Part shown: positions 14,970 through 34,810 of the stretch, one piece after another
Position numbering within the stretch: the stretch's first letter is position 1
Layout: each line of letters opens with the position of its first letter
Assembly: GCF_000820845.2 (NCBI RefSeq)
Contig: NZ_CBXV010000004.1
Coordinates: 248,001-312,000, forward strand
Length of the DNA: 64,000 nt
Source of the DNA: Pyrinomonas methylaliphatogenes
GTDB taxonomy: Bacteria; Acidobacteriota; Blastocatellia; Pyrinomonadales; Pyrinomonadaceae
Reading direction: 5' to 3'
The notes under the pieces: model-generated
Database searches by the model: none
Seen by the model: only the letters and a program-made list of their open reading frames with translations
Told to the model about the DNA's origin: nothing
Position numbers and translations under genes: made by a program

Positions 14970-15137
14970 GCCTCGTTCGAGGCGCACCAGAGGGGTTGGA
15001 TCGAGCTTGCGCCTTTCGAGTCGGAGCGTATTATCCCGCGTGGCGCGTTCAGCGTGTGGGGCGTGAGGGTCGGAGGGCGATCCCCCGCGGCGGAGACGGT
15101 TTCTTCTTTGGCGGTCGATCCGATTAGAATCTTTCTC

Positions 15138-18026: not shown

Positions 18027-18034
18027 GATGGCGC

Positions 18035-18565: not shown

Positions 18566-18948
18566 TTCATCGACTCCTTACTTTCGAGCGTATGAGCTCA
18601 TCGGCCCATCCGGCTATCGACTCCGCCCCATAGCGCATCTCATCGATTCCTCGCCTTCGCAAGCTTAAGGCATCTCCCAAGCGCGATTCAACCGCCGGTT
18701 GTTTGGATGAACGCCAAATCGCCCCAGTTGTTCGGTCCTACATGAAGGCGATTGTTCCAAGCGGGCAGCAAGATTCGAGGGAAGGGGGCTTATAAAAGCG
18801 AGGGGGAGCTATAAAACGGGAGCGGCTTAAGCCTCTCCCTTCATGCATATGATTTCGCTGAACGGGTGATGGCAAGAAGGGGGCGGTTGGCCTCGGCGGG
18901 CAAGCATGGCGGGGGCCTTCGATTGGTCGAGGCCGGCGAAAAAAACTC
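18566..18948. other. Intergenic region without a recognised gene
   Basis: This stretch between the divergent thioredoxin-fold gene and the RHS gene promoter shows no supported reading frame. It contains two similar segments reading CGACTCC(T/G)...CATCTCATCGATTCC on the + strand near 18570 and 18640, which suggests a small local duplication around the start of the - strand gene. Confidence 0.4.
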
Positions 18949-18976
18949 TTGACAACTCGTGCGAGCGGAGTTAAAT
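18949..18976 (+). promoter_or_regulatory. Strong candidate sigma70 promoter of the RHS toxin gene
   Basis: A consensus TTGACA at 18949-18954, a 16-base spacer and TTAAAT at 18971-18976. It lies in an A-rich patch (AAAAAAACTC) and is the best -35 box in the window. The predicted RNA start near 18983 leaves a leader of nearly 195 bases. Confidence 0.6.
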
Positions 18977-18982
18977 AAACAC

Positions 18983-19176
18983 GCCATCCGAAGGGTAGTC
19001 GGTCCTCACAGGGATACAAAAACCTGCCTCTAGTTCTTCCCCCCCCATGTGCCCCGGCAAGGGAGGTGAATGCGAGGCTCTGGGCTGACTTGTATCAGCC
19101 TTCCTTTGCGCTGTGAAGGGTGTGAGTCTACGCCATGTAGCGAGTCTTTGAGGTGCGATCGATGGAGGGAAGGAAG
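18983..19176 (+). promoter_or_regulatory. Long, possibly structured 5' leader of the RHS toxin mRNA
   Basis: About 195 bases between the promoter and the start codon. Visible elements are GCCTC at 19026 able to pair with GAGGC at 19074, a C-run and a G-rich segment that can pair (19040s-19060s), and a clean hairpin GGCTGA-CTTGTA-TCAGCC at 19083-19100. I compared it by eye with c-di-GMP, TPP, cobalamin, glycine, fluoride and guanidine riboswitch consensus elements and found no match. Whether it folds as a regulatory RNA is unknown. Confidence 0.35.
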
Positions 19177-22100
19177 ATGCGGAGGAGCTTAGCGTACCGC
19201 AAGGTGCTGGCGATCTGTTTGAGCATCGTGTTGGTGTGGCCTAGCGGCGTGATTGTGGGGCGAGAAGTTGGCGGTCGTCTGGCGCGTGAGAGTCGGCAAA
19301 AGGTAATCGAGTGGGGGTATCGAGCCGGACATTTGTTGGTGAGGTTTCGGGCTGGAGTGAGCGAAAGCGAGCGGCGGCGCGTGATCAGGGCATACGGTTT
19401 AACTTCGGTTGGGCGGTTGCGCGGCGAATCTATGGTTGAGCGCGTTGAGGTGGGAGTCGGTCGAGAGTTGGCCATAGCGGCGCAGCTTGGGCAGGAGCGA
19501 GCGGTCGAGTGGGTTGAGCCGGATTGGGAGGTTGTGGCGACGTCATTGGGCAATAGCGTGAAGCGCGTTTCTGAGCCAGGATCTTTAGTGAGAAGAGTCG
19601 GCAAGCGAGTGGCGCTCGGCGGGGCGCGGGCTGCGGTTGCAGGCGTGAGCGTGGCGGTGATCGACAGCGGGGTGGATTTCAGTCATCCGGATCTGGTTGG
19701 GTGGCAGTGGCGTAACGCTGGCGAGTTGGAGAACGGTGATGATGATGATCGCGACGGATTTATCGACGATTTGGCGGGATGGGATTTTGTGACTGGGCGT
19801 GGCGAAGTGGTTGACGAGCAGGGGCACGGGACGATGTTGGCGGGTTTGGTGGCCAAAGGGCCGGGCCTGAGCGGCGGGCAAGTCTTAGGCGAGAGCGAGT
19901 TTGATCTCCGATTGATGAATCTGCGAGTGTTGGATAAAGAGGGGCGGGGGCATGTAAGCGCGGCGATTGAGGCGATCGATTATGCCATCGGGCATGGGGC
20001 ACAGGTCGCATTGTGCGCGTGGGGCTTAGGGGCAGAATCGCGATTCTTGCGCGAGGCTATGGAGCGGGCCGATCGCGCCGGTGTAGTTGTTGTTGTGGCG
20101 GCGGGCAATGATGGACATGTGTTGGTCGAAGGTGAGCCATCTGCGATGGTCACCGCACAGTCTCCAGGCAGCGCCTTCACATGGTATCCGGCCAGTTGGT
20201 CATCGAAGAATATTTTGGCGGTCGGGGCGACCGATCAGTTTGGGCGATTGACGGAGTGGTCCAACCGCGGGCCGACGGTGCGGGTTGTGGCGCCAGGCGT
20301 TGACTTGTGGACGACGCGGGTGGGTGGTGGATACACGACGGTGAGCGGGACATCAGCGGCGGCAGCCGTGGTGGCGCGCGTGGCGGCGCGTTTGAAGGCG
20401 GTGGATTGGACGCGGACGGCAGCTCGCGTGATCGAAGCGATCACCTCTTCGGCCCGTCGCGAGGGGACTGAGACTATCGGTGTGGTGGATGAAGCCGGAG
20501 CGATAGAGGCTTTACGTCGCGAGCCGGGCCAAGATGCCGCAGGGAGCGATAGACGCAGGATGACGCCGCGGCCCGCGTCGCCACCGAAAGCGGAAGCGCT
20601 CGTACTCGATCCGCCGCGGCCCGCGCGTGGGCCGCAGAACTTGCCGCGTTTAGATGAGGTACGGCGTGTGCGCGCGACCCAAATCCGCATGGACGCACCG
20701 GTGCCATCGCGGCAGCGTTACTGCTGGCCGGGTGACGCGGCGTGCCGACCACGACCGGCGCGGCGGGAGCGACCCGCGCCACCTACATTGCCGCCAAGTG
20801 GGCCGGGGATGAAGCCGGGAACGGGGATGAAATTGCGCGAGATGCTCGAGTGGTGGCGACCCATGGGGCAGTTGGCGGCTGTTGGGACGAGTTGGATGGG
20901 CGCAATGGCGAAGCGTAGCGGCGCGGCAGCGAGGGCATTAAGCGCATTCAAGCTAACCGAATCTAAGTCAGTAGCGCGGAGCGGCGCGGCGGCGGGTTGG
21001 ATTTGGGCCGATTGTCAGCAGGTGCAAGGTTACGTTGACGACTATTATGGTTATTACGGCGGCGGTTATGTGGCGATTTACGTCGATGGGATGCAAGCTG
21101 GTGGAGGGAATGCCAATGCTGGAGGGTATTTTGCTTTCGATATCTCCGGATTGGTCAACGACGGGCAGGAGCATTACATCTCGGCGTGGACGTGGGATTA
21201 CTACACATACTACTGGTATGAGATAGGTGAGACGACCGTTTCCGGCTGCTGGCCGAGCTTCGCTCCGCCGCGGCTCGATCCGCGCAACGAGACGGGGCAG
21301 CCCGGGGTCAACCTCGAGTCGCAGAACATCAACTGGAGCGTGCCGCTGATCAGCCTACCCGGGCGCGCCGGGCTCGATCTCGATTTGAGCTTGACCTACA
21401 ACTCGCTGGTCTGGACGCGGTCAGGCGAGGCTATCATGTTCGATGCCGACCACGGTTATCCGAGTCCGGGCTTTCGGTTGGGGCTTCCGATCATCCAGCC
21501 GCTCTTTTACAACGCGCAAGTCGGCGTCTACTCATATCTGCTGATCACGGCGAGCGGCGCGCGCGTCGAGTTGCGGCAGCAAGGTGGGAGCAACGTCTAC
21601 GAGGCGGCCGATGGCAGCTACACGCAGTTGATCGACTACGGATCGAGCTTGTTGGTGCGGACCACGGATGGAAAGCAGTACTGGTTTGCGCCGACGGTTT
21701 ACAGCGAATGGCGGTGTGTGCAGATCAAAGATCGCAACGGCAACTACATCACGATCAACTACGATGGCAACGGCAATCCGACCACGATGATTGACACGTT
21801 GGGGCGGACCATCCAGTTCAACTACGACGGCAACGGGCGGCTGCTTTCGATCACACAAGCGCGGGCGGGCGGCGGGCAGATCACCTGGGCGACGTTCGGG
21901 TATGGGGATATTTGGATGGCACCGGACTTCCCTGGGCTAGCTGTAATGGGGCCGCAGGGCAGTTGGGTGTCGGTGCTGACGCGCGTCGGGTTGCGCAACG
22001 GTTCGCGCGTCGAGTTCGAGTACACGCCGTTTGGTCAGGTGCGGTTGATCCGGCGAGTGGCCGAGGATGGGACGCAGCTTGCTTACACGAGCTACAACAT

Positions 22101-25100
22101 GGGGACTGGGCCACACAGCGACTGCCCGCGATTTTCCGAGCAGCGTGACTGGGTGTTGTGGGGCGTGATGAACGAAAGCCAAGAGGTGGTGACCAGCTAC
22201 CAGGCGGCAGCGGATGGTTCATGGAGCCAAGTGACGACGCCTGATGGAGTGACACAGAAGGAGTACTACTACACTTCGGGGTGGCAGAAGGGGCTGGTCT
22301 ATCAAACGGAGACGTGGGCCGGCGGGGTGCGGCGGAAGTGGACCACGGTTGCGTGGACGCAGGACGACGTGAACTTGCCCTATCAGAAGAATCCGCGGCC
22401 CGTGGAGATCAACGTTTATGACGAGGCCGGGAATCGGCGGCGGACGACGATCGACTACGGGCCATACGCGGCGTGGAGCTTGCCGTACGTGGTGCGCGAG
22501 TACGCAGCCGATGGGGTGACGCTGCTGCGGCAGACCTACACGGACTATCGGTTAGATGGCGAGTACGTCAACCGGCGGATCATCGGGTTGGTCGGCGCCG
22601 TGCATGTGGCCGATGGCAACAACGTGTGGCAGAGCAAGATGGTCTATCATTACGACTGGGGCGGCGAATACTTTGCGGGAACGGCGCCGAGCGTCGGGCA
22701 CGATGGGAGCAACTACGGCGCTGGTCTGATCTATGGGCGCGGCAACTTGGTGGGCGTGCAACGGTTCGACGTTGGGGCGATCGATGATGAGAGTCGCGCC
22801 GTGTGGGTGGAGACGCGTGGCTACGATGCGGCCGGGTCGGTGAGGTTTATCCGTGATGGGAGCTGGCATCAAGTGGTCTACGATTACGGGGACAACTTTT
22901 CGGATGGGAACAATGGGCGGAATACGCGAGCGTATGTGACGGGAGTGACCGATGCAGATGGGTACAGTTCGTACACGCAGTATGATTACGACACTGGGTC
23001 GGTGACGGCGCGGCGTGATCCGAAAGGGGCGGTAGAGTTGTTGGAGTACGATGAGGCTGGGCGGTTGGTGCGCGAGACGAATCAGAACACAGGGGCCTAT
23101 GTGCGGTGGGTCTATCCGGCAGCGGGCGATTATGTGGTGAGCTATCGGACGGTGCGGCAGGTGGGCGAGGAGTTGATGAGCGCAACGTTCTATGATGGTG
23201 TGGGGCGGGTGCGTGCCGTGGCGAGCGATTTTCCTGGGAGCAGCGGTGGGCGGCGAGCGGTGCATTACATGAACGACGCGATGGGGCGGCGGGTGTGGGC
23301 ATCGAATCCGGCGGAGATCAACGACAGTTGGCAGCCTGTTGGCGACGATGCTGGTGATTGGCAGTGGACGAAGCAGGAGTACGATTGGCAGGGGCGGGTG
23401 ACGCTGACGATCAATCCTGATGGGAGCACACGTGAGTTAAGTTACACTGGCTGCGGGTGCGCAGGCGGTGAAGTGATTACGAGCAGAGATGAACGAGGTC
23501 GAAGGAAGCGGCTCTACAAGGATGTGTTGGGCAGACTCACCAGAGTTGAAGAACTCAACTGGGACGGGAGCGTCTATGCGACAGCCTGGTACAGCTACAA
23601 CGGGCGTGACCAACTCATTCAAATCAATCACGAGGGGCAGGTGCGGACGTTCGAGTATGATGGGCATGGGCGGTTGTGGAGAAGGACCACTCCTGAACAA
23701 GGGCAGACGATCTATAGCTACAATGCGGATGATACGGTGAACACGATCACTGATGCACGTGGAGCGAGTCAGACGTTTCAGTACAACGGGCGGCACTTGG
23801 TGACGGCGATCAACTATGGCGTTCCACAAGGAGTGGCTCCCACTGCGAACGTGCAGTATGGGTATGATGAAGGAGGGAATCGGGTGTGGATGGAGGACGG
23901 GATGGGGCGGGTGGATTACGAGTACGATGTGTTGGGGCGGTTGGTGGCGGAGACGCGGTATTTCAATGAGTTAGGGCAATCTTACAGGCTCACGTACCAG
24001 TACGATTTAGCAGGGGAGTTGACGCAGGTGACGAATCCGTGGGGTGTGGTGGTAGGCTACACCAGAGATCAGACCGGCCAGGTGACGGCCATCACCGGAG
24101 CCGGTTATGCTGGGGTGACTGTATATGCGCAGGGGATCAGGTATCGAGCCTTTGGGGCGGTGAAGCAGGTGACGTATGGCAACGGGCGACAACAGAGCGT
24201 CGCGTATGACAACAGGCTTCGTGTGAGCAGATGGGAAGTGGTTGGGGTGTTAGGGTGGGAGTATGGGTATGATGATTTTGGTGAGCGGAGTGGGCGGGTG
24301 ACGTTTGCGCGGAACCTGTACGACAACAGATTGGATCGGAGTTGGGAGTACGATCAGGTGGGGCGGTTGCAGCATGCGTACAGTGGGGAGGAGGCGCGAG
24401 CGCACGTTGGGCGAGGTGAGTGGGGGAGTCCGACCGGGCCGTATGCGCATAGCTATGAGTATGACGTGTGGGGGAACATGGTGAGGCGTGTCGGGTGGGG
24501 CGGCTGGGCAGGGGCCTTCAGTGTGAGTTACGTTGGGAATCGGGTCGTTGGGTTAGGGTACGATGGAGCAGGGGACTTGGTGGACGACGGGCGGCAGCAG
24601 TATGGGTATGATGCGGGAGGGCGGCAGGCGTGGGCGCAAGGGAGCGGGTATCGGTTAGAGCAGAGGTACGATGGGGACGGGTTGCGGGTGAAGAAGGATG
24701 ACAACGGGGAGGTGGTCTATTACATTCGGTCGAGCGTGTTGGGCGGGCAAGTGGTGGCTGAGGTGAGGAACTGGGGATATGGCTGGAGTTGGAGCAGGGG
24801 GTATGTCTATTGGCCTGGTGGGGAGCTATTGGCGGTGCAGCAGGGCGGGGTGAGATGGGTGCACCGAGATCCAGTGGTGAAGAGTCAGCGGTTGACGGAC
24901 GAGGCGGGGAGTGTGGTGGCGGTGGTGGAGTTGGATCCGTGGGGCGGAGAGACGGACAGATGTGTGAAACAGAGGCAGCAGCCGTACCGGTACACGAGTT
25001 ACGAGCGGGATGGGGACGGGGTGGATCAGGCGCTGATGAGGAGTTACCACGGGTGGTGGACGCGGTTCAACGAGCCGGACCCATGGGAAGGGAGTTATGA

Positions 25101-25884
25101 CTTGACGGATCCGCAGTCGTTCAACCGGTATGCTTATGTGCAGAACGATCCGGTGAACTTTGTGGATCCGACAGGGATGCTGACGGTGGGTCCGGTCAAC
25201 GGGGTGCAGCTTGGGGTAGTGACGGTGAGAGCCGATGCTGGGCCTGACTGGACGGCGTTATGGGAGTTATGGATGTTTGGGATGCAGATGGATCAGCGGT
25301 TGCTGCCGCCGTTGATTGATGAGCCGCCGGAGTTGCCAGCGGTGCCGTCACAAACTACCGCTTCTCGACAGGATTTACATAGACTTGTCAATGACTGTCG
25401 CATCCGAGCAATGCTTGACACTATCGCTTATGCTGAAGGCACAGCTGGGGATCCCAACAATGGTTATGGGACCCTTGTCAGAGGGGAGGTTGTTAGATCG
25501 CCGAATAACCCAGCTCTTGTGGGTCAAAGAGACGTCATAATCAACGACTTCTCGCAGCATCCGAATGCGTTGGTGCGAGTTGGTGGAAGTTTGTACAGTA
25601 CCGCTGCTGGGCGTTGTCAGATCAGATACCAAACTTGGAATGAGCTTGGCTTGTCAGATTTCAGCCCTGAAAATCAAGATCTCGGTGCCGTGATATTGAT
25701 GCAGCGGCGCGGGATGATCGATCCGCTGCTGAGCGGCAATTTCGCGCAAGCGATCAAGAGAGGGAATAGGGAATGGGCTAGTTTACCCGGATCCCCTTAT
25801 GGTCAAGGGAGAAGAGGGATGGCTCAGCTTCAGCGGGTATATAAGGAAGCACTCGCTAATTGTCAGAGGCAGCAGAACCGCTGA
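19177..25884 (+). CDS. Secreted subtilisin-RHS polymorphic toxin with C-terminal lysozyme-like (GH104) domain
   Basis: A 2235-residue protein; the ATG at 19177 follows GGAGGGAAGGAAG six bases upstream and opens a signal peptide (AICLSIVLVWPSGVIVG). Domains in order: a fervidolysin-like prodomain (about 45-130); a peptidase S8 domain with an intact triad, Asp163 (VIDSGVDF), His217 (GHGTMLAG) and Ser393 (SGTSAAAA), plus AAGND; a Pro/Arg-rich linker (about 440-560); a Tyr/Gly-rich beta domain (about 607-690); a long RHS/YD-repeat shell (about 700-1930); the RHS core-associated end (RYTSYERDGDG to NRYAYVQNDPVNFVDPTGM, ending at residue 2001); and a 234-residue tip. The tip matches the lambda R endolysin pattern: TIAYAEGT (catalytic Glu2087), STAAGRCQ, DFSPENQD, NREWASLPGSPYGQ. 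It should cut peptidoglycan. The bases encoding the tip are visibly more A/T-rich than the shell, as expected for an exchangeable toxin cassette. The next gene overlaps its 3' end and is a candidate immunity gene. Confidence 0.9.
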   Translation: MRRSLAYRKVLAICLSIVLVWPSGVIVGREVGGRLARESRQKVIEWGYRAGHLLVRFRAGVSESERRRVIRAYGLTSVGRLRGESMVERVEVGVGRELAIAAQLGQERAVEWVEPDWEVVATSLGNSVKRVSEPGSLVRRVGKRVALGGARAAVAGVSVAVIDSGVDFSHPDLVGWQWRNAGELENGDDDDRDGFIDDLAGWDFVTGRGEVVDEQGHGTMLAGLVAKGPGLSGGQVLGESEFDLRLMNLRVLDKEGRGHVSAAIEAIDYAIGHGAQVALCAWGLGAESRFLREAMERADRAGVVVVVAAGNDGHVLVEGEPSAMVTAQSPGSAFTWYPASWSSKNILAVGATDQFGRLTEWSNRGPTVRVVAPGVDLWTTRVGGGYTTVSGTSAAAAVVARVAARLKAVDWTRTAARVIEAITSSARREGTETIGVVDEAGAIEALRREPGQDAAGSDRRRMTPRPASPPKAEALVLDPPRPARGPQNLPRLDEVRRVRATQIRMDAPVPSRQRYCWPGDAACRPRPARRERPAPPTLPPSGPGMKPGTGMKLREMLEWWRPMGQLAAVGTSWMGAMAKRSGAAARALSAFKLTESKSVARSGAAAGWIWADCQQVQGYVDDYYGYYGGGYVAIYVDGMQAGGGNANAGGYFAFDISGLVNDGQEHYISAWTWDYYTYYWYEIGETTVSGCWPSFAPPRLDPRNETGQPGVNLESQNINWSVPLISLPGRAGLDLDLSLTYNSLVWTRSGEAIMFDADHGYPSPGFRLGLPIIQPLFYNAQVGVYSYLLITASGARVELRQQGGSNVYEAADGSYTQLIDYGSSLLVRTTDGKQYWFAPTVYSEWRCVQIKDRNGNYITINYDGNGNPTTMIDTLGRTIQFNYDGNGRLLSITQARAGGGQITWATFGYGDIWMAPDFPGLAVMGPQGSWVSVLTRVGLRNGSRVEFEYTPFGQVRLIRRVAEDGTQLAYTSYNMGTGPHSDCPRFSEQRDWVLWGVMNESQEVVTSYQAAADGSWSQVTTPDGVTQKEYYYTSGWQKGLVYQTETWAGGVRRKWTTVAWTQDDVNLPYQKNPRPVEINVYDEAGNRRRTTIDYGPYAAWSLPYVVREYAADGVTLLRQTYTDYRLDGEYVNRRIIGLVGAVHVADGNNVWQSKMVYHYDWGGEYFAGTAPSVGHDGSNYGAGLIYGRGNLVGVQRFDVGAIDDESRAVWVETRGYDAAGSVRFIRDGSWHQVVYDYGDNFSDGNNGRNTRAYVTGVTDADGYSSYTQYDYDTGSVTARRDPKGAVELLEYDEAGRLVRETNQNTGAYVRWVYPAAGDYVVSYRTVRQVGEELMSATFYDGVGRVRAVASDFPGSSGGRRAVHYMNDAMGRRVWASNPAEINDSWQPVGDDAGDWQWTKQEYDWQGRVTLTINPDGSTRELSYTGCGCAGGEVITSRDERGRRKRLYKDVLGRLTRVEELNWDGSVYATAWYSYNGRDQLIQINHEGQVRTFEYDGHGRLWRRTTPEQGQTIYSYNADDTVNTITDARGASQTFQYNGRHLVTAINYGVPQGVAPTANVQYGYDEGGNRVWMEDGMGRVDYEYDVLGRLVAETRYFNELGQSYRLTYQYDLAGELTQVTNPWGVVVGYTRDQTGQVTAITGAGYAGVTVYAQGIRYRAFGAVKQVTYGNGRQQSVAYDNRLRVSRWEVVGVLGWEYGYDDFGERSGRVTFARNLYDNRLDRSWEYDQVGRLQHAYSGEEARAHVGRGEWGSPTGPYAHSYEYDVWGNMVRRVGWGGWAGAFSVSYVGNRVVGLGYDGAGDLVDDGRQQYGYDAGGRQAWAQGSGYRLEQRYDGDGLRVKKDDNGEVVYYIRSSVLGGQVVAEVRNWGYGWSWSRGYVYWPGGELLAVQQGGVRWVHRDPVVKSQRLTDEAGSVVAVVELDPWGGETDRCVKQRQQPYRYTSYERDGDGVDQALMRSYHGWWTRFNEPDPWEGSYDLTDPQSFNRYAYVQNDPVNFVDPTGMLTVGPVNGVQLGVVTVRADAGPDWTALWELWMFGMQMDQRLLPPLIDEPPELPAVPSQTTASRQDLHRLVNDCRIRAMLDTIAYAEGTAGDPNNGYGTLVRGEVVRSPNNPALVGQRDVIINDFSQHPNALVRVGGSLYSTAAGRCQIRYQTWNELGLSDFSPENQDLGAVILMQRRGMIDPLLSGNFAQAIKRGNREWASLPGSPYGQGRRGMAQLQRVYKEALANCQRQQNR

Positions 25885-26516
25885 GGAATAGGGTTAGAAG
25901 ATTTTTACTTTCTTGGCTACTAGTTAGCTGTCTTGTATCTATGAGTTGTTCTACTCCGGTGTCAATGCTGCCCAGCGGCGCGCAACTCACACTTAAAGAC
26001 TTGTTTGAAGCCGTTTCAAATCCATTCTTTCAAAAGATGAGGCAGCAAATACGTGCAAAGCCGGAAGAGCAAACGAGCTTCAGCGTGGAAGTAGGAATAG
26101 AACGTCCGGTCAATGTGCCGGAAGATGTATTGCGAATACTCAGATATGATGAACGGAATCAGACCTGTCTTGCATCGGGGCAATCGATCAATGGCATTCT
26201 AGCAACATGGTTTGTTGCATCGGAAGTTAACCTGAATGATGATGACCTGCCAGATCTGATTGTGATGGCCGCCAATCCATGTTTGTTTGGCGCGAATGTC
26301 GACCCGTTTTGGGTGTTTTGCGCCACGCCGCAAGGGCACGAGCTTGTGCTAAGTGAGAGCGCGACGGTCTTAGATGTGCTAGACAAGCGGACTAACGGCT
26401 ATCGCGAAATAAGACTAATGAGGCTATCAGCGACTGAGAAAATCATCACTGTTTACAGATTTGATGGTAGAAAATATCAGGCGCGTTTTTCTAGGGTGGA
26501 ATCGATTAGGCAGTAG
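25860..26516 (+). CDS. Candidate immunity lipoprotein for the lysozyme-type RHS toxin
   Basis: A 218-residue protein in a different frame that overlaps the toxin gene by 25 bases. The likely start is TTG at 25860, preceded by AAGGAAG at 25843-25849, so it appears translationally coupled to the toxin. The N-terminus is basic (RNRVRR), then hydrophobic (FLLSWLL) and reaches a lipobox LVSC at Cys24, with a second possible one at Cys30. A lipoprotein in the periplasm is exactly where an inhibitor of a peptidoglycan-cutting toxin would need to be. The rest resembles no family I can name; NLNDDDLPDLIV looks like a calcium-loop or FG-GAP-like element. Immunity is inferred only from position, overlap and predicted location. 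Confidence 0.7.
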   Translation: MSEAAEPLRNRVRRFLLSWLLVSCLVSMSCSTPVSMLPSGAQLTLKDLFEAVSNPFFQKMRQQIRAKPEEQTSFSVEVGIERPVNVPEDVLRILRYDERNQTCLASGQSINGILATWFVASEVNLNDDDLPDLIVMAANPCLFGANVDPFWVFCATPQGHELVLSESATVLDVLDKRTNGYREIRLMRLSATEKIITVYRFDGRKYQARFSRVESIRQ

Positions 26517-26685
26517 GTGACCGATCCACAATCGTTCAATCGATACAGCTATTGTGAGAATGATCTGGTGTGTGGGTCCAGAAGGGTTAGTGCCGAAGAT
26601 CATGTGTGAGGTGATAGGGAATAGTGAGACAGGCTATAACGTGTATTGTGTGTGTGGGGGGAGGGGAGTATGGGAGATGGTTTAA
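26517..26685 (+). pseudogene. Displaced RHS tip remnant, frameshifted
   Basis: Directly after the immunity gene stop, the frame reads VTDPQSFNRYSYCENDLV, nearly the same as the end of the intact RHS core (LTDPQSFNRYAYVQNDPV at 25107-25160). Five bases (AACTT in the intact copy) are then missing, so the continuation VGPEGLVPKIMCEV, corresponding to the intact NFVDPTGM junction, lies in the next frame and runs to a stop at 26683. This is the trace of a former or silent second toxin tip joined to the RHS core, a common arrangement behind RHS genes. A second frame change around the G-run at 26656-26661 would join it to the gene at 26670. Confidence 0.75.
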
Positions 26686-27194
26686 ATGAAGTTGGTGGCA
26701 AGGGTCGAGTAAATGAGGCTAATGGCGGAGGCGGCGCGCTGGCTCCGCTGCAAGGTCCTGCTTCGCAGCCACATCCGGCGCCATCAGTCAAACCGCAGCA
26801 GAAGGAGTTCGATGACTGTGTGAAACGAACGATCTCGCAATTCAGAAAGGAGTATATTGCGCAAGGAGGCAAAGCGTTACTTGGGGGAGGCTTATTGATA
26901 GGAGGAGTATGGATCCTCATCAGAGGGGTTCCCGGGGCAAGGCCAGCTGGCGGTGTTGGTTTTAGAGCTGCCAGGGAGTTTGTCCGATCTAGCAGCATAC
27001 ACAGTCTCGATGATGCCTTCAATGCATTGAAAGTCGGAGGATTGCTAAGTTTGTCACCTGCCCTTCTCGGAGGATTGCTCATCAAAGAGGCAGTTAATGA
27101 AGGCGAGCAAAGCGAAATAAAACTCAAGCGCGCCATAGAGGAGTGTAAAAAGAGGTTCCCCGAAGCCAACCACAAGGTTCCGTTGCTACTGTAA
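26670..27194 (+). CDS. Hypothetical protein with hydrophobic helices, probable displaced RHS toxin tip
   Basis: A 174-residue frame; the ATG at 26670 follows GGAGGGG closely. It begins with a Gly/Pro-rich low-complexity stretch (about 1-45), then a charged helix (KEFDDCVKRTISQFRKEY), two hydrophobic segments (ALLGGGLLIGGVWILI and GGLLSLSPALLGGLLI) and a charged C-terminus with KRAIEECKKRF. No family is recognised. The upstream RHS core remnant runs into it apart from one frame change, so it is likely the toxin part of a second, orphaned RHS cassette; two membrane-type helices would suit a pore-forming effector. It may instead be an independent small membrane protein. Whether it is expressed is not clear. 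Confidence 0.5.
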   Translation: MGDGLNEVGGKGRVNEANGGGGALAPLQGPASQPHPAPSVKPQQKEFDDCVKRTISQFRKEYIAQGGKALLGGGLLIGGVWILIRGVPGARPAGGVGFRAAREFVRSSSIHSLDDAFNALKVGGLLSLSPALLGGLLIKEAVNEGEQSEIKLKRAIEECKKRFPEANHKVPLLL

Positions 27195-27215
27195 CCGCCT
27201 TTGTCTTTGCAGGCG

Positions 27216-27551
27216 ATGGTAGAGAGCGTCGTCAAAATCTATCTGATTATCCTTATATGGTCTGGTCTGTGTGACCTTTTGGTCAAACTCTTCAGGGCGT
27301 TCCGATCATGGACACTAAATGGTAGGCTGGTGATATCGGATGCATGTCTAAGAAGCCTTCTAAGGGGCGCATCCATGGCCGTTGTCGGTTATGTGGTGCT
27401 TGACTTGTTCATTTCGGGCAGAGTGCTTGTACAGGCAACCTTGTTGCTTGTGATGTCCTTATTGATTGTGCAAGAGTACGTGTTGTTCTTAACGGGAAAA
27501 TTACACTTGGCGAAGCTACAAAACAGCGAGTCCGAAAAGACCAAGGGGTAG
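27216..27551 (+). CDS. Small hypothetical membrane protein, possible immunity partner
   Basis: A 111-residue frame from the ATG at 27216 (an in-frame TTG at 27201 is the alternative). It has about three hydrophobic segments (YLIILIWSGLCDLLV, AVVGYVVLDLFI, VQATLLLVMSLLIVQEYVLFL) and a basic C-terminus. No family is recognised. It starts 21 bases after the displaced toxin-tip frame, the position expected for that tip's immunity gene, and a membrane protein would suit protection from a pore-forming toxin. This role is inferred from position only. Confidence 0.5.
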   Translation: MVESVVKIYLIILIWSGLCDLLVKLFRAFRSWTLNGRLVISDACLRSLLRGASMAVVGYVVLDLFISGRVLVQATLLLVMSLLIVQEYVLFLTGKLHLAKLQNSESEKTKG

Positions 27552-27589
27552 GGCGCGCGGCAATCGAGGGCGGAAGAGGCAGTTGGTTC

Positions 27590-27760
27590 GTGCTAGAAAA
27601 CGTCTTGGTTTACGGATTAGCTGGATGGGTGGCTGCCTTGGTCACGAGGTTGTTGGTGGGAACAATCTCTCTCCGCTTTCAATTAGCACTGACCTTGATG
27701 AGCATGTTGCTGGGCGGTTTAATGGCGTTGTGGCAATTGAAAGTGGACAAAGCGCGGTAA
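27590..27760 (+). CDS. Very small hydrophobic protein (56 residues)
   Basis: A GTG-started frame preceded by GGAAGAGG. The product is almost wholly hydrophobic with two likely membrane segments (VLVYGLAGWVAALVTRLLVG and LALTLMSMLLGGLMALW) and a charged end (LKVDKAR). It follows the 111-residue membrane protein by 38 bases on the same strand. It has no recognised family and may be part of the same orphan cassette or the end of a decayed gene, since the frame is open for some distance before the GTG. Confidence 0.4.
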   Translation: MLENVLVYGLAGWVAALVTRLLVGTISLRFQLALTLMSMLLGGLMALWQLKVDKAR

Positions 27761-27771
27761 TGAAGCGCTAG

Positions 27772-28089
27772 CTGCGCGCTCCTAATGGTGAGCGAGGTTC
27801 GGAGGTGAATTCCCTTCACTGGGAGCGGGTTCGGACGGTAAAAGTCGGTGAGAGCAAATGTCTCGTGAATTGTGTTGTAGATCCTCATCCTTGCTGATCT
27901 CCGATCAGCTTGGGCTTCTCAACTGAGTGGAGATTCATCAGAAATCTCCAATCTTATACTCTTCTTGTACTACGCGCTTACGGCCATTGGTTGAGCACTC
28001 CGAGTAGTAGTGTCAAGCGCTATGGCAATCTCCGCTTGCTTCCAGCGCTGTTTGCGTGGGATCAGAAGTGGGCAAACCGCGACCCGTAG
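27772..28089 (+). pseudogene. Decayed coding remnant with two frameshifts
   Basis: Three consecutive open segments in alternating frames join end to end: 27772-27897 (APNGERGSEVNSLHWERV to VVDPHPC), 27890-27994 (LADLRSAWASQLSG to FLYYALTAIG) and 27991-28089 (LSTPSSSVKRYGNLRLLP to DQKWANRDP). Each ends in a stop that overlaps the start of the next frame by a few bases, as expected for an old gene broken by small indels. The amino-acid texture looks protein-like, but no family is recognised. Confidence 0.35.
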
Positions 28090-28490
28090 CCTAATCACAC
28101 GCGCCACTCTTTCAGGTCATCATCTTATTCACTCAGTTGACCAAAGTTCCGACAGTCAAACGGCAATAAGCGGGCACATGAAAATTCCGCACATTATCAA
28201 GAAATTTTTCGTATGCGCGGTCGAAAGGGATTATGATATGGTTTGGAGGTATCCGCGGAAATCGGCGAAAGCTCAGGAAATCAACGACTCCACGACTCGC
28301 GGCCTTCTGGCTCCTGAGGTCGGGAAGAGGGTTGAGGATAGGTGAAAAATCTGATGGTCTTCGTTACGAGGGCAGGTGTTGTTAGACCGTAGCGGAGTGC
28401 AGCGAGTACCGACGTAATCTGACGGTTCGCTACAAAGATTATATTCCGTTAGATTCTCTTTAAAGGTTGATGATATCAAAGGAGTTAGGT
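28090..28490. other. Intergenic stretch upstream of the vapBC-type pair
   Basis: No gene is supported here. A frame of 111 codons across 28010-28345 lacks a ribosome site and protein-like composition. A TATATT at 28440-28445, with TCTGAC 16 bases before it, is a possible promoter for the antitoxin gene at 28491. Confidence 0.35.
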
Positions 28491-28727
28491 ATGGAACCTG
28501 ATTTGGTCGGGAGGATAGCTGCTAAAGTAGCTCTTCTACCTGTCGAGCAGCAGAAGAAAGCGCTCGAATATGTCGAGGCGTTGCTGGAACAAAGCGTCAA
28601 TCGTCCTTTACGCGGAGGGCGGAGTCTGATGGGCGCATTCGCCCATCTAGGTTTGAGCGTCACGGACGAGGACATAGAAGAAGCGCGCCGCGAGATGTGG
28701 CGTCACTTTCCACGCGAGGAGGCGTAG
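28491..28727 (+). CDS. Antitoxin of a PIN-type toxin-antitoxin pair (DUF2281-like)
   Basis: A 78-residue protein; ATG at 28491 with AAAGGAG six bases upstream. The N-terminal helix pattern (LVGRIAAKVALLPVEQQKKALEYVEALLEQ) resembles the DUF2281 antitoxins commonly found upstream of PIN toxins. The C-terminal part (RGGRSLMGAFAHLGLSVTDEDIEEARREMW) would be the toxin-binding region. The toxin gene begins four bases after its stop, so the two are almost certainly co-translated. Such antitoxins neutralise the nuclease and usually repress their own promoter. Confidence 0.85.
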   Translation: MEPDLVGRIAAKVALLPVEQQKKALEYVEALLEQSVNRPLRGGRSLMGAFAHLGLSVTDEDIEEARREMWRHFPREEA

Positions 28728-28730
28728 AAA

Positions 28731-29135
28731 TTGCACGGCATCGTCACAGACACGCATCCGCTGTTGTGGTATCTGTTCGATCCGGTGAAACTATCGGAAG
28801 CGGGGCGCACGGCGTTTCTTGAGGCTGAAGCCAGGGGAGAAGTCATTCATGTTCCTTCAATAGTTGTGGTGGAACTGCGTTATTTGGTCGATAAAGGGAA
28901 GCTTGGCGAAGTGCATTATGAGGTGATTTTGCAGGTTTTGCGCGACAGCGTGCTGCCGCTTAAGATTGCCGCGCTTGACATAGAGGTTGCCGATAAACTT
29001 ATTTCCATTCCGCGAGAGATCGTCCCCGATATGCCAGACCGAATCATTGCAGCAACAGCGCTCAAGCTCAATCTACCGTTGGTGACGAAGGATGAGGATG
29101 TCCGCAAACTCACCAATGTGGTGACAATATGGTGA
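28731..29135 (+). CDS. PIN-domain ribonuclease toxin (VapC-type)
   Basis: A 134-residue PIN protein with a TTG start four bases after the antitoxin gene. The acidic metal-binding residues of the family are all present: Asp7 (VTDTHPLLWYL), Glu48 (VVVELRYL), Asp103 (MPDRIIAATA) and Asp121/Asp123 (VTKDEDV). VapC-type toxins cut tRNA or rRNA when freed from the antitoxin. The THPLLWYL start places it with the PilT-like subgroup that pairs with DUF2281-type antitoxins. It appears intact, unlike the broken PIN gene at 30221. Confidence 0.9.
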   Translation: MHGIVTDTHPLLWYLFDPVKLSEAGRTAFLEAEARGEVIHVPSIVVVELRYLVDKGKLGEVHYEVILQVLRDSVLPLKIAALDIEVADKLISIPREIVPDMPDRIIAATALKLNLPLVTKDEDVRKLTNVVTIW

Positions 29136-29299
29136 GCATTGGTGGCCGAGGTCTTGGCGGATCTGGCTTTGAAAAAGTCGATCGTGCATAAGCGGAGCCT
29201 TCGTTGCAGCCTTGGTCGCATTGCTCTGGTGCTCATTATGGCATGGCTGTGCAGGTGTAGATCGTCAACTACTCCATAGCTGAAGCTAGGGGCTTGTAG

Positions 29300-30232
29300 C
29301 TACCCGGAGGCGCTACCTTGAGCAAGCAACTCGTTTGGCTGGTTGACAGCAGCCCTCGCCCGGATGTTCCGGGCCGCCACAACGTCGGCAGGCGCAGCGA
29401 ACCCGCACGATATACAGGAGAAACGCGCTTGCGTTGGACGATTGCGTTTGTCGATGCATCTACAGACCGGACACGTCCGACTGGTGTTGCGAGGGTCTAC
29501 AAGAACCACAGGTACACCAGCCAGCCATGCCTTGTACTCGATAAAGGACCGGAGCTGGAAGAACAACCAGTTATGCAATCGTGCACGCTGCCGACGACGG
29601 GCCGTTACCCGGTCGCGGATGCTCGTCAGGTCTTCGAGGGCAATCCCGCGTCCGGTGCGTTGCGCTGTGGCCACGATTGCCTTGCTGACGACGTGGTTGA
29701 CATGGCGTTGAAAGCGCCGTTGCTTGCCGCTGAGCTTGCGCGGCTTCCGTTTGGCAGAGCGCGTGCCTTTCCGCTGGGATTCCATCGGCGGTGTGCGTCG
29801 ATGCGTCGCTTCTGCTCGACAGTTGCTCCGGTGTAGGTGATGCCGTCCGAATCGGTCGCGATGTTGACGACGCCGAGATCGGCACCGAGTATGTCACCTG
29901 CTTTCGTGGTCGGCCGCTCCTCCACGTCACAGACGACGTTCAGGTAAAACGTGCCCTGGTAGAAGACCAGATCGACTTCACCCTTCCGCAACGGCAGATA
30001 CCGACGCTGGTAGTCGCCACAAACAAAAGGCATCACTTGGCGACCGTTGAGTGTCCAGATACTCACCTGGTCGCCGGGCTTAAAGCGGAGAATCCGGTCA
30101 TCATAGGCAATGCTGCTATGAGGGCGGAAGGTCCGCCTCACCTTCCGGTCCGTCTTGTAGCGTCGGCAACTTTGGCCCGAGAGCAAAGCGCTTTTTGATG
30201 AAATACGCGCGGGCAGGTTTGCATTGGTCATT
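29300..30232 (-). pseudogene. Broken IS200/IS605-type TnpB (RNA-guided nuclease/accessory transposon protein)
   Basis: Read on the - strand, TnpB signatures appear in order but in different frames. From about 30180 to 29790: YKTDRKVRRTFRPHSSIAYDDRIL, then GADLGVVNIATDSDG (RuvC-I Asp). From about 29785 to 29300: RKGTRSAKRKPRKLSGKQRRF, GIALEDLTS (RuvC-II Glu), CPVC and CISCGF (zinc finger), and ADVVAARNI (RuvC-III Asp). One frameshift lies near 29786 and another near 30180, where KKRFALG sits in a third frame. The N-terminal 60-80 residues are missing; the copy stops near 30232 where a PIN gene fragment begins. All catalytic residues remain, but a full protein cannot be made. No tnpA is nearby. 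A GTAGC...GCTAC inverted repeat at the - strand 3' end (29299-29318) may be the element's terminal hairpin. Confidence 0.85.
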
Positions 30233-30484
30233 TCCGAGACATTGCTCAGCGAGCGTGCGCCAGAACAGGGGCAGCAAGCGTTGGCTTCGATTCCACTGAG
30301 CGAGGTTGAACTCATCGAGTACAGCAATGAAGTTGATGTGTTGCGCGACGCCTACATTGCTGCAGGCGTGGGTAGTGCAGCATCTGCTGCTGATGCCGAG
30401 CACGTTGCCATAGCCTCCGTGGCAGAGGTGGATTGGGTAGTGAGTCGGGACTTCAAGCACATCGTCCATTACATCGCTATCCAG
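30221..30484 (+). pseudogene. 5'-truncated PIN-domain gene fragment
   Basis: The + strand frame reads ALVISETLLSERAPEQ, then LIEYSNEVDVLRDAYIAAGV, SAADAEHVAIASVAEVDWVVS and RDFKHIVHY, the pattern of the C-terminal two thirds of a PIN-domain protein (in relatives, DALHIA-AT--VD-LVSWNFKH). The first third with the first catalytic Asp is missing, and the frame diverges after about 30484. The left edge coincides with the truncated end of the TnpB relic, which suggests that insertion or deletion at this junction destroyed both genes. Confidence 0.6.
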
Positions 30485-30969
30485 AAGGCCAGCGCGAGGT
30501 TCTGCACAAATCCGGCTCTGGAAACGACCAGATCGGGTTTGGCGCTGCAAGCAGATCTTTGCGCTGAGCGCGCTCCGCAGGACCCAGGGAATGGCGCTAG
30601 CTGGCTGCAAGGTCCCCTCTTGCTGTCCGATCGCGAGGGAGGGAAGCGATCGAGAGTTCAATGATTGCCAAGCTATCCGTGTCTCTTCGGCTCATCATCA
30701 ATTTGAGGAAAGGGTTCAATGATCGCTCGGTTATCGACTGCGCAAGCCCGAGGCTTTCCACTGGATGCAGGATCTGGATGATATCGTGCAGCGCGCTTCG
30801 ACAAGTCGTTCGCCGCCCATTTCCACTGGATGCAGGATCTAGATGATGGACCACAGTGCTAGGTTCTTCCCGCCGGGCCATATTCCTCTCATTCTATCTC
30901 AGAGGAAGGTCGCACAAGTCGGTCATTTATGAGATGGCTGCTGGTTCGATCCTCTCCGTCTCCAAAAGA
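30485..30969. other. Intergenic region with degenerate sequence
   Basis: No gene is supported. It carries the two-copy repeat described at 30755-30847 and runs to the end of the convergent esterase gene. Confidence 0.4.
30755..30847. repeat. Two-copy 28-bp direct repeat, possible CRISPR relic
   Basis: A 28-base unit beginning TTTCCACTGGATGCAGGATC occurs at 30755-30782 and 30820-30847 with one mismatch (CTGGATGAT against CTAGATGAT). The copies are separated by 37 unrelated bases, giving a 65-base period that suits a CRISPR repeat-spacer unit. Only two copies are visible, no cas gene lies in the window and the repeat is not clearly palindromic, so a CRISPR origin is only a possibility. Confidence 0.35.
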
Positions 30970-33066
30970 TCATTGTTGGCCTCTCGCGCTCGGGTCGCCA
31001 GTGGGCGGCGGCGCATGATCCTCTTTAGCTGGCGGACCGAGCAGCTCTGTGAGGATCGGCTTGAGCGCATCGGCCCACACTTGATATCCCTTGACGTCTA
31101 GATGTAATCCGTCTGGCATCGCCATACCCTCACGAAATCTCCCATCCTTATCGGCCAATTTATCGTTGATGTTCAGGTACCTGATCCTTTTCCCGTCAGC
31201 GAATTTTGATATGTTTTCGTTGATCTTGTTGATGATCGGCATCACAGCCGGATTATCGTTGCGTGGCGTGATCCCCATCAGGATGATTGTCGCGCCGGGC
31301 GCTTTTCGCTGGCAGATATCCAAGATGGCTTTAATCCCACGAGTGACATCCGCGATTCGCGGGTCATCGGGCCCTTCGGGCGATCTGTTGCCGATGTTAT
31401 TCGTGCCGGCCATCAAGACGATGACCTTAGGGTTGACGCCGTCCAACTCCCCGTTGTACAGACGCCACAGGATGTTCTGAGTCGTGTCACCGCCCCAACC
31501 GAAATTGGCGGCGTTCCAGCCGAAGAAGTTCTGGCGCCAGTTCTCCAGAAAACGTTTGTATTGCGCATCGCTCGTGCCCCAGCGTCGGGTGATCGAGTCG
31601 CCTAGAAAATAGACATCGATGCGCCCTTTCTTTCTCTTCTCAAGCAGCTCAGCATGCGCGATCATCGAGTTTCGATCCGTGCGAGGCACAGGTTGATCGG
31701 CTGGCGGAGCGCTTTCGACGTGCAAGCTCGGATTACGGTTCGAGCGATCCGCTGTGCTCGACTGACTGGGCAATTGGCGTGGCGTGACTTTGCCGCCGCG
31801 CACGAGCGTGTTGAGCCATTCTTCCGCACGGACGGTGTAAGGGCGTTGCTGTTCCGGCGTCGCTTGGTGGTTGTGTGGAGAGTCGATCATCGGAACGACC
31901 TCTTTAGGCCCTTTAATTTGATTGAAAGCGATCCAGATGCCGACCGGCGGTGTGACCGTATCGACGAACCCAATGGCGACCAGAGCAGTGGCTTTAATCC
32001 GCGAAGCGAAGTTGACCGGATCAAAGTAGAGCGCCGTCGCCATGATCTTGGGATTATCCGCAGGCCAGTTCGGATAGCCTGACGCCCGACCATGAAGCGG
32101 CCCGTTCGTGTCGCATCCGGCTGGCTCGTTGACGATGACATGAGTGATCTTCGGGTGCAGCCCGGCAACGGCAAGCGCCTGCTGCCCGCCCATGCTCGTC
32201 CCCATCACGACGAGCGTTTGTCCATCCCAATCGGGCCGGTGCGTGATGTAATCCACGGCGCGGTAGTCGGCCAAATACATCTGTAGAAAGTAACTCTTAT
32301 CGCGATCCTCGCGCCCGATCAGATGATAGTTCTTGAGCTCTTCTGGTAGCGCATCGTAGTATGACTGCGGCGCGTTGGGCAGCACGTCATGCGGCTCGAT
32401 GTTCAGCGCAAGCCAACCTTGGGCCGCGCGGTCGGTGACCCACTGTTTTTGCAGAGGGTAGGGAGGCCCGGCCCATTGGAAGATGACCAGCGCCGGAAAC
32501 TTGCCTTCTCTTTTCGGCTTGGCGATCTGCCCGTAGATATGTTTGCCGTCCACGTTGTCCATTCTGATCGTCGCGTATTCCACGCCGGGCTTGTCGCTTT
32601 CGCCTGGCGTCAGGACGACGTTCTCCGGGATCCGCTCGAGCGATTTGATCTTGGAATCCCAAAAGAGATCGAAGTCCGCTGGGCGCGGGACCGATGGGCG
32701 CAGCTTTTCCGGCGCTACCGCCGCTCCGAGGGTGACGCTTTCACTTGAGCCGGGCCTTGAAACTTGAACGTAAACCATCGCCGGCTCATCGAGCGTGACT
32801 TCAATCGTGTTGCGACCAGCCGAGAGATCAAGAGTCCCGGTCTTAATCACGCTGTAGTTATTCTTCTTGACCGTGTAAGTGTAGAGCCCTTGGGCCGTTC
32901 CTTGCGGCACGTGGGCTGTCCAGCCGACCTTCTCGCCAACAGCGTAAATGCCGCTCGGCTTGTACGGCGTAAAGATCGGCTGTTGGGCGACGCACAGGCT
33001 CGCGGCAATGTGGCAATAGATCAGCGCCGCGAAGATCATCCGAACGCAATGGCTTCGAGTGCTCAT
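30970..33066 (-). CDS. Secreted double esterase: CE7/AXE1-type acetyl xylan esterase fused to an SGNH hydrolase
   Basis: A 698-residue exported protein (signal peptide FAALIYCHIAASLCVA). An N-terminal beta domain (about 30-115) is followed by a CE7/AXE1 alpha/beta-hydrolase domain (about 120-425) with nucleophile Ser291 in GTSMGGQQ, Asp369 in VDTVTPP and a histidine in PHNHQ. A Pro/Ser-rich linker leads to an SGNH (GDSL) domain from about 480: block I GDSITRRW with Ser491, block II FGWGGDTT, block III AGTNNIGN, and block V PDGLHLD with Asp652 and His655. Both halves are families known to deacetylate xylan or xylo-oligosaccharides, so the fusion probably removes acetyl groups at several positions, helping the GH10/GH3 enzymes of the window. 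It is transcribed alone on the - strand. Confidence 0.9.
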   Translation of the reverse strand: MSTRSHCVRMIFAALIYCHIAASLCVAQQPIFTPYKPSGIYAVGEKVGWTAHVPQGTAQGLYTYTVKKNNYSVIKTGTLDLSAGRNTIEVTLDEPAMVYVQVSRPGSSESVTLGAAVAPEKLRPSVPRPADFDLFWDSKIKSLERIPENVVLTPGESDKPGVEYATIRMDNVDGKHIYGQIAKPKREGKFPALVIFQWAGPPYPLQKQWVTDRAAQGWLALNIEPHDVLPNAPQSYYDALPEELKNYHLIGREDRDKSYFLQMYLADYRAVDYITHRPDWDGQTLVVMGTSMGGQQALAVAGLHPKITHVIVNEPAGCDTNGPLHGRASGYPNWPADNPKIMATALYFDPVNFASRIKATALVAIGFVDTVTPPVGIWIAFNQIKGPKEVVPMIDSPHNHQATPEQQRPYTVRAEEWLNTLVRGGKVTPRQLPSQSSTADRSNRNPSLHVESAPPADQPVPRTDRNSMIAHAELLEKRKKGRIDVYFLGDSITRRWGTSDAQYKRFLENWRQNFFGWNAANFGWGGDTTQNILWRLYNGELDGVNPKVIVLMAGTNNIGNRSPEGPDDPRIADVTRGIKAILDICQRKAPGATIILMGITPRNDNPAVMPIINKINENISKFADGKRIRYLNINDKLADKDGRFREGMAMPDGLHLDVKGYQVWADALKPILTELLGPPAKEDHAPPPTGDPSARGQQ

Positions 33067-33203
33067 CGTGCCTATCTAGACTCCGTAGGTTCGATCTCAA
33101 ATCTGCGGTTGATGCGCGCTTACGATTGGCGATGTCGCGAATCGCTCAATGTAAGATTATACAAAAGATCCCTCGGTTCGAAGTCGGCGTTTGAGTTGGA
33201 TCT

Positions 33204-33824
33204 TCAAGTTGCTTCCCGCCGACCAAATATCTCCTCGTGCAACGCGCAATATTCCGCCCACGTGTCAATGTCGCGCACGACATATGGAGAAGAGACGGAG
33301 ACGCAATGTAGCAGGTCGCGCTTCTGGTCCAGTAGAGCGCGAAGCCCGCGCGTTTCGTCAAGGCGCAACAGATCATCGCGCAACGCGAGATCGATCAGCA
33401 CCGGATGGCCTCGACGCCCTTGCCATTCGGGGACGATCAGTTTTGCTCCCGTCGCCTTCCGCGCTTCGATCAGGCTTCGCATGACGGATGGCGGGATCGC
33501 CGGTTGATCGGCGAGCGCTATCATCACAGCGTCAGCTTCCTCTCGGATCGAAGCGATGCCGCACGCGATGGATGCGCTCATCGCGCTCTTCGGATCCGGA
33601 TTGTGAGCGAAGTCGACGCGCCAGTCTTTCAGCTTCGCGCGCACTTCATCCGCTCTGTGGCCAACAACGACGATGATCTCGCGCAACCCTGCGGCGCGTA
33701 AATTCTCTAAACACGCCTCGATCACCGTTCGCTCTCCGAAAGGTAGAAAAGGTTTGAATGCTCCCATGCGGCGCGAGCGCCCGGCGGCAAGAAGCAGCGC
33801 GATGATTCTCGGTTCAACGTTCAT
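33204..33824 (-). CDS. Molybdenum cofactor cytidylyltransferase-like protein (MocA/MobA family)
   Basis: A 206-residue nucleotidyltransferase with the glycine-rich motif LLLAAGRSRRMG at the N-terminus, the conserved lysine of FKPFLPFG, VVVGHRADEV, and a metal-site region IALADQP. This is the MocA-type branch that loads CMP onto molybdopterin for xanthine-dehydrogenase-family enzymes. Its start overlaps the stop of the FAD subunit gene by ATGA, so it is translationally coupled to that subunit. It therefore very probably matures the molybdenum hydroxylase encoded upstream. No separate insertion chaperone (XdhC-like) is visible nearby. Confidence 0.88.
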   Translation of the reverse strand: MNVEPRIIALLLAAGRSRRMGAFKPFLPFGERTVIEACLENLRAAGLREIIVVVGHRADEVRAKLKDWRVDFAHNPDPKSAMSASIACGIASIREEADAVMIALADQPAIPPSVMRSLIEARKATGAKLIVPEWQGRRGHPVLIDLALRDDLLRLDETRGLRALLDQKRDLLHCVSVSSPYVVRDIDTWAEYCALHEEIFGRREAT

Positions 33825-34810
33825 GGTGTGAGCAGGGCGGTGAGTCCGCGCTTGGCCAGAACGCCGACCATGTGACGCCGGTAAGATGTCGATGCGGCGA
33901 CGGTCGTGCGCAAAGGTTTGGCCGTTTGCCGGACCAGTTCTGCGACTCTTTCTAGCCTTTCCGGCGTGAGCGGTTGTCCGACGATCATCTCGCGCACACC
34001 CTTGACGAGCCGCGGACTCGGATTGACCGCCGTGAGCGCCATACGCACGTCCTCACATCGACCAGCCTCGTTCACGCGCGCTGCAACGGCAACGCCCGCC
34101 AGCGGATAGTCAACCGACGAACGGACGCGGTACTTCAAATATATGCCGCGCCAATCGGCGAACTCCGGCGCGACGTGCACGGCGCAGACGATCTCGTCCG
34201 GCGCGAGTTCGTACTTCTTGATCCCATCGTTGACGAAGAACTCGGCGAGTTTCACGCAACGTTCGCCGCGTGGACCGGCGATGTCGATCGTCGCATCGAG
34301 CGCAAGCAGCGCGGGCGCAAGATCGCCTGAATAGGCCGCCCAGCAGCGTCGCCCGCCCGGCGCGACGTGGCAGACGGTGCCGTCTTTCTTCAAACAGAAC
34401 CCGTTCGCTTTGCGCCAGAAGTATGATTGATTGTAGTAAACGCAGCGCGTGTCGAGACAGAGGTTGCCGCCCACGGTCCCCATATTTCTGATGTTCGGGC
34501 CGGCAACTTGCGACGCGGCCGAGGCGATCACCGGAAAGCGCGAGCGGATGATGTCGTGCTCGGCCACTTCGCTGAGACGCGCGAGCGCGCCGATGCGCAA
34601 CCCGCACGCGGGATCGAACTCGATGGCGCGAAGCTCATCGAGACGGCTGAGATCGACAATGTGCGCCGGAGTTTCGATCCTCATGCGCATGTTGACTACT
34701 AAGTCAGACCCGCCCGCCAGCAGCTTCGCCTGCGCGCCGTGTTCTTCGAGCAGACGCACCGCTTCGGCGAGCGTGTGCGGACGGTGAAGCGTAAAAGATG
34801 CCATCGCCAT
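33821..34810 (-). CDS. FAD subunit of a molybdenum hydroxylase, 4-hydroxybenzoyl-CoA reductase beta-like
   Basis: A 329-residue FAD-binding subunit from the ATG at 34810 (another ATG at 34804; upstream extension to 34897 looks non-coding). The FAD motifs AKLLAGGSDL and AGPNIRNMGTVGGNL are present. After them it has cysteines at positions 118, 123, 139, 147 and 156. The spacing of the last four (16, 8 and 9 residues) agrees with what I recall of the extra [4Fe-4S] site in Thauera HcrB, with DTRCVYYNQSYFW and RRCWAAYSGDLAPALLAL also typical. Ordinary xanthine dehydrogenase FAD subunits lack these. The gene lies between the large subunit and the MocA-like gene. A role in reductive removal of a phenolic hydroxyl, or in a related aromatic oxidation, is an inference. 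Confidence 0.85.
   Translation of the reverse strand: MAMASFTLHRPHTLAEAVRLLEEHGAQAKLLAGGSDLVVNMRMRIETPAHIVDLSRLDELRAIEFDPACGLRIGALARLSEVAEHDIIRSRFPVIASAASQVAGPNIRNMGTVGGNLCLDTRCVYYNQSYFWRKANGFCLKKDGTVCHVAPGGRRCWAAYSGDLAPALLALDATIDIAGPRGERCVKLAEFFVNDGIKKYELAPDEIVCAVHVAPEFADWRGIYLKYRVRSSVDYPLAGVAVAARVNEAGRCEDVRMALTAVNPSPRLVKGVREMIVGQPLTPERLERVAELVRQTAKPLRTTVAASTSYRRHMVGVLAKRGLTALLTP

Follow-up and report, generated by a model that had tools for sequence, protein, structure and literature searches.

The window, a stretch of 64,000 nucleotides corresponding to C4:248001-312000 of the 3.79-Mb genome of Pyrinomonas methylaliphatogenes (16 contigs), harbors an RHS array on its forward strand. For strain K22T, 16 scaffolds were described, and RHS genes were named as one probable reason why the scaffolds end where they do (PMC4644332). 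The active RHS gene (19153-25884, + strand) consists of a 2243-aa frame comprising a subtilase (S8) domain, YD/RHS repeats, an Rhs_assc_core (residues 1928-2009; 51 bits versus a cut-off of 32.5) and a GH104-like tip; the subtilase domain is located at the N-terminus. The core end of this gene (25102-25176, +; LTDPQSFNRYAYVQNDPVNFVDPTG) is intact and served as reference. The tip (25405-25851, +) had been predicted to be GH104-like, and phmmer comparison with lambda lysozyme (1am7) bore this out (E 2.8e-19, covering residues 36-184 when 25300-25881 is translated). The active tip, not that of the orphan described below, resembles the GH104/phage lambda endolysin family over 149 residues, but is here fused to an RHS core; the resemblance concerns only the neighbor of the orphan. 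Immediately 3′ of the tip follows a 218-codon frame (25860-26516, +) with an LVSC lipobox-like start and a hydrophobic LLVSCLVSMSC stretch. No match to this frame was found in Pfam or NCBIfam; judging by its position and the hydrophobic stretch, it probably encodes a lipoprotein immunity partner of the GH104 tip.

Downstream of the main RHS gene and this putative immunity gene lies an orphan cassette. The original prediction had placed it directly behind the active gene, which is correct as to the order of the elements but not as to their adjacency, as the orphan begins 632 bases 3′ of the active RHS stop with the 218-codon frame in between. The cassette opens with an RHS core-end fragment identified by DNA alignment (26517-26570, +; VTDPQSFNRYSYCENDLV), followed in a different frame by a linker (CVGPEGLVPKIMCEVIGNSETGYNVYC; 26569-26649, +) and by a tip frame of 174 codons (26670-27194, +), which comprises a glycine/proline-rich linker, a QQKEFDDC motif and a hydrophobic tip domain from about 26790. 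A 116-codon frame for a membrane protein with hydrophobic stretches (27201-27551, +) and a 56-codon frame with two hydrophobic stretches (27590-27760, +) come next. The array is closed by an antitoxin-like frame and a PIN-domain toxin (28467-29135, +); the second frame matched PIN PF01850 (E 3.2e-14) and the first had no Pfam match. Just past this pair, on the minus strand (29300-30327), frames resembling an IS605-type TnpB transposase, apparently split, were noticed by eye.

The core end and its five-base loss

Local alignment of 24985-25300 with 26400-26700 gave a score of 46, exceeding all 300 dinucleotide shuffles (mean 19.4, sd 2.6, max 33) and confirming that the DNA from 26517 onward repeats the end of the active RHS core. 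Since the fragment comprises only 54 bases, one might suspect a chance similarity in noncoding DNA. The nucleotide alignment, which had been proposed as a check on precisely this point, contradicts a coincidence, as do the existence of a second copy and of a homologue fused in frame (see below), so that we consider this explanation to be practically eliminated.

We then aligned 13 core ends of the same genome, including those of both intact RHS genes. At the site in question, 11 of the 13 were free of gaps, among them both intact genes and the closest relative of the orphan core end (L025 10617, minus strand; SYCENDPVNFVDPTGL). The five bases (AACTT) were absent only from the window orphan and from a sister orphan (L003, about 9006). 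The predicted loss relative to the intact copy and the resulting shift of the frame to GPEGL... were thus both corroborated. Within the 162 genomes of the class, the linker frame CVGPEGLVPKIMCEVIGNSETGYNVYC was confined to these two orphans, and no active RHS gene found in the genome has the linker beyond the lesion. The further assumption that the five-base deletion had silenced the cassette was not supported, because an orphan behind the stop of another gene has no RHS start anyway, and because the same deletion occurs in the second orphan, which indicates that the five-base loss is an old decay.

A broken leader common to two orphans

The sister orphan is located 280 kb away in the same genome (C4:555017-555301; in L003, starting near 9006). 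It is preceded by a different RHS gene (L003 293-8533, 2746 aa) and the follower of that gene. Both orphans share a leader of 296 bp (26529-26824, +), which is 92% identical to C4:555017-555301 and exhibits the same five-base loss. Past this leader the two cassettes diverge abruptly: the homologue of the tip in the sister (L003 9190-9675) is only 25% identical to that of the window. Each copy also bears a private second lesion, namely an 11-base G-run insertion in the window copy and a TGA in the linker of the sister. When the DNA of window positions 15000-34000 was searched against L003, the sole other match was a stretch of 143 bases with 70% identity in a separate, degraded RHS fragment, indicating that neither of the two RHS genes preceding the orphans is a recent copy of the other. 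A search of genome contigs with the exact pattern of the broken leader returned no occurrence.

The retention of an identical change in two copies could also be taken as the mark of a programmed frameshift, in which case the cassette would be regulated rather than broken. The further, different lesions in the two copies (insertion and TGA) are incompatible with this view, an upstream start codon is not apparent, and copying of the leader explains the conservation; we therefore regard a programmed frameshift as very improbable. The leaders differ at 13 positions, of which eight are third codon positions, a share above the average for neutral drift, which would speak against decay, but derived from too few differences to decide. 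The differences were unevenly distributed, with 2/126 in the 5′ half and 9/119 in the 3′ half (Fisher P 0.03), and the greater similarity of the 5′ half leans weakly towards a conversion tract that may have entered from the core side.

The simplest order of events would be that the five bases were lost first, that the leader was then shared between cassettes, and that both copies subsequently decayed separately. Candidate routes of sharing are duplication, gene conversion, or tip exchange downstream of the leader. Given that one broken leader is common to two orphans with very different tips, it would have passed by copying or conversion from one defunct cassette to another, or have been retained while tips were exchanged downstream of it.

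Relationship of the orphan to the RHS gene in front

The common view of orphan RHS cassettes is that of a spare arsenal left by the gene that precedes them. The position of the present orphan behind the active pair would agree with its being the previous tip of that gene, displaced upon arrival of the GH104 domain, and the original prediction had accordingly considered the GH104 tip a recent replacement. Tip exchange as such is evident in this genome at the level of DNA alignments: the core DNA of the window matches that of other RHS genes as far as the tip boundary, up to 25171 (L027, where the identity stops) or 25340, and the tips differ thereafter. Over 54 ungapped bases, however, the core end of the orphan is 87% identical to that of an orphan on C3 (L025 10617) and 70% identical to that of the active gene. 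A former tip of the neighbor is thus unlikely, barring a later conversion that replaced the core sequence. Moreover, the same broken leader also follows another RHS gene, whose DNA has little in common with that of the RHS gene in the window, and one strain permits no dating. The proposed recent replacement by GH104 is therefore not supported, and we consider a displaced tip improbable. As for the C3 orphan (L025 10252-10617, minus strand), it is the third cassette of this kind and the closest core-end relative; its DPTGL junction is intact, and its tip is short and looks truncated.

The finding of one broken leader in front of two different tips suggests that cassettes can be copied or recombined after loss of use, in which case the past of the gene in front cannot simply be read from the orphan behind it. 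Overall, most of what the orphan represents is the usual debris of RHS cassettes, but its recombination history is informative.

The tip and its fused relative

Within the class, a relative of the orphan tip was detected in one other genome (G125), from another genus of the same family, where the domain forms the C-terminus of a full-length RHS protein by in-frame fusion (1642-aa open frame, L040 4339-9264). The orphan tip showed 33% identity to this protein over query residues 40-178 (E 1.6e-14), and tip-to-tip Smith-Waterman alignment gave a score of 112 versus a shuffle maximum of 51. Both tips begin with the motif QQK[ED]FDDC and finish with CKK-FP-ANH. The search for an RHS protein with the 174-residue domain fused in frame, which had been suggested as a test that could disprove the prediction, hence yielded a homologue. 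Together with the core fragment, this fusion substantiates the assignment of the window element as an orphan RHS toxin-tip cassette.

Few other relatives were found. The 182-aa frame had no relative in a genome-contig collection of 84,980 species, and the tip alignment gave no match in viral contigs. A profile search across the phylum (396 genomes) returned as convincing hits only the two orphans and the fused protein. Weak matches in G312, G089, G092 and G096 were rejected, as they are located in unrelated frames. The weak class-wide matches that were inspected (G060, G059, G149 and G114; G121 and G009 were left out) were likewise discarded, being located in non-RHS proteins. A short remnant resembling the sister tip, interrupted by stops, was observed in the same genus (L041, G126 contig 76, about 2023-2154, minus strand).

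Modeling of the tip gave an all-helical structure of low confidence (pLDDT 57) and no meaningful fold match; neither sequence databases nor PDB or Foldseek contained a match. Hydropathy was marginal, with one or two stretches in the orphan tip and none above the threshold in the fused relative. The tip had been described as membrane-active in appearance. Hydrophobic, glycine-rich stretches and a membrane-protein partner are in favor of this description, while the low model confidence and the lack of a database match do not back it, so that membrane action is plausible only.

A small membrane-protein gene is positioned 3′ of all three tips, as judged by position and hydropathy. In the window, the 116-codon frame (27201-27551) probably encodes an immunity protein. 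It resembled a standalone protein from G130 (97 aligned aa, 33%, E 1.6e-8; 0/1000 shuffles as good) and, weakly, the partner of the sister orphan; no similarity to the partner of the fused relative was detectable (154/1000 shuffles as good). The latter, a 92-aa membrane protein that starts 24 bases past the stop of the fusion gene, showed 29% identity to the partner of the sister, with 0/1000 shuffles as good. Similarity in the three pairwise comparisons of these partners was thus strong in one case, weak in one and absent in one, and their homology is established in part. Tip and partner constitute a small family without database names. While part of an RHS gene, the tip would have acted as a small helical toxin at the membrane of competing bacteria, from which the 116-aa membrane protein may have protected the producer.

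The G-run and a candidate internal start

The second frame change, private to the window copy, is caused by 11 extra bases in a G-run (26658-26668, +; placement within the run is ambiguous) in comparison with the sister. At this point, the frame passes from CVGPEGLVPKIMCEVIGNSETGYNVYC to DGLNEVGGKG..., and the 174-codon frame is joined as had been anticipated; the sister orphan keeps a single frame through this point, but encounters a stop at GGKG*.

We conclude that the element is probably a decayed orphan Rhs-CT/immunity cassette that is likely dead as a warhead. The orphan would be inactive as an RHS warhead, as its core has no linked start. The cassette also appears to be no longer re-armable by recombination in the core end: the frame lesion lies past the only stretch shared with the main gene, so that the fusion would leave the reading frame, and the linker beyond the lesion occurs in none of the active RHS genes found. 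The putative immunity gene (27201-27551) may still be useful, for example in protection against related tips.

Against decay speaks the tip frame itself: counted from its ATG (26670-27194), it is exactly 174 codons long and still open as far as CKKRFPEANH, and its C-terminus still matches CKKSFPNANH of the fused relative, so that the tip proper may be undecayed. Furthermore, the sequence GGAGG, followed by a 5-base gap and an in-frame ATG (26660-26672, +), is present in the window copy and absent from the sister copy; as read from the sequence, it represents a candidate start from which autonomous translation of a free-standing 174-aa tip is possible. The G-run insertion might hence have freed rather than killed the tip by generating a ribosome-binding site and an ATG, and the 174-aa tip and its immunity protein would then form an intracellular pair similar to a toxin-antitoxin system. 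In Salmonella, internal expression of orphan Rhs toxins has been described, and these function as type II toxin-antitoxin modules (PMC7043789). No sigma-70-like promoter was present nearby on the + strand, however, chance alone can produce one such site where slippage acts on G-rich DNA, and the sister copy contains no comparable start. In light of these points, we assign such a freed tip a small likelihood. The composite scenario, in which the shared broken leader and the slippage insertion with its ribosome-binding site and start converted a former RHS warhead and its partner to a toxin/immunity pair that stands alone within the cell, appears doubtful.

Comparison with known orphan cassettes

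The decayed cassette may be compared with the orphan rhs-CT/rhsI of Salmonella LT2 (STM0292), which has kept 522 bp of 95% identical core and is re-armable by recombination (Koskiniemi 2014, PMC3967940). Both share a tip fragment, a core remnant and an immunity gene (putative in the window) behind a main rhs/rhsI pair, as well as a related tip fused to a full-length RHS protein elsewhere; they differ in that the window orphan has 54 bases at 70% identity, a frame lesion and a different core lineage (PMC3967940). To judge from the alignments, recombination with the main gene would not re-arm the window orphan, as it does the Salmonella one, although not every orphan need have this capacity. The type II toxin-antitoxin orphan Rhs is similar in combining an orphan tip with a partner and a possible internal start, but promoter, start codon and toxicity were tested there, whereas the start in the window is one at the sequence level only (PMC7043789). 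Polymorphic toxin systems are likewise known to diversify their C-terminal tips through recombination with standalone cassettes, but here two silent cassettes share a broken leader and differ in their tips (PMC3482391). The arrangement of the window cassette is thus known from Salmonella, and what is unusual is the lesion common to two orphans.

RHS arrays across the genome

The genome contained 12 core-domain matches spread over several arrays, and many further orphan cassettes with varied tips. The RHS tips are largely cell-wall enzymes (peptidase M15, peptidase M23, SLT-like, GH19 and GH104-like), encoded at L025 11615-12577, L026 1920-3179, L028 10741-11748, L062 3159-4190 and window 25405-25851. 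These predicted domains suggest that the toxins reach other bacteria in their periplasm or at their cell surface.

All six RHS arrays that could be traced to a 3′ end were closed by a classical toxin-antitoxin pair of varied type (window 28467-29135; L003 10226-10896; L025 9301-9959; L027 4953-5622; L028 17050-17789; L062 660-1513). The pairs were of the types PIN, DUF433/DUF5615 (twice), MNT/HepT, HEPN/MNT and MazE-like/PIN_3, and several were located between RHS core repeats. Assuming 12 toxin-antitoxin places from four families in 3.79 Mb, and array ends that total about 15 kb, the probability of at least five pairs at array ends by chance is near 2e-9, the region size having been set with the data already in view. 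Toxin-antitoxin pairs are in any case abundant in genomic islands. The pairs might stabilize the arrays against deletion by recombination, and this link between RHS arrays and toxin-antitoxin pairs in the genome may outweigh the orphan finding in worth. In L003 (10838-11812), we also observed an RHS fragment that lacks a large part of the core between SYGNGR and NFVDPMGM and whose frame continues into a tip-like region.
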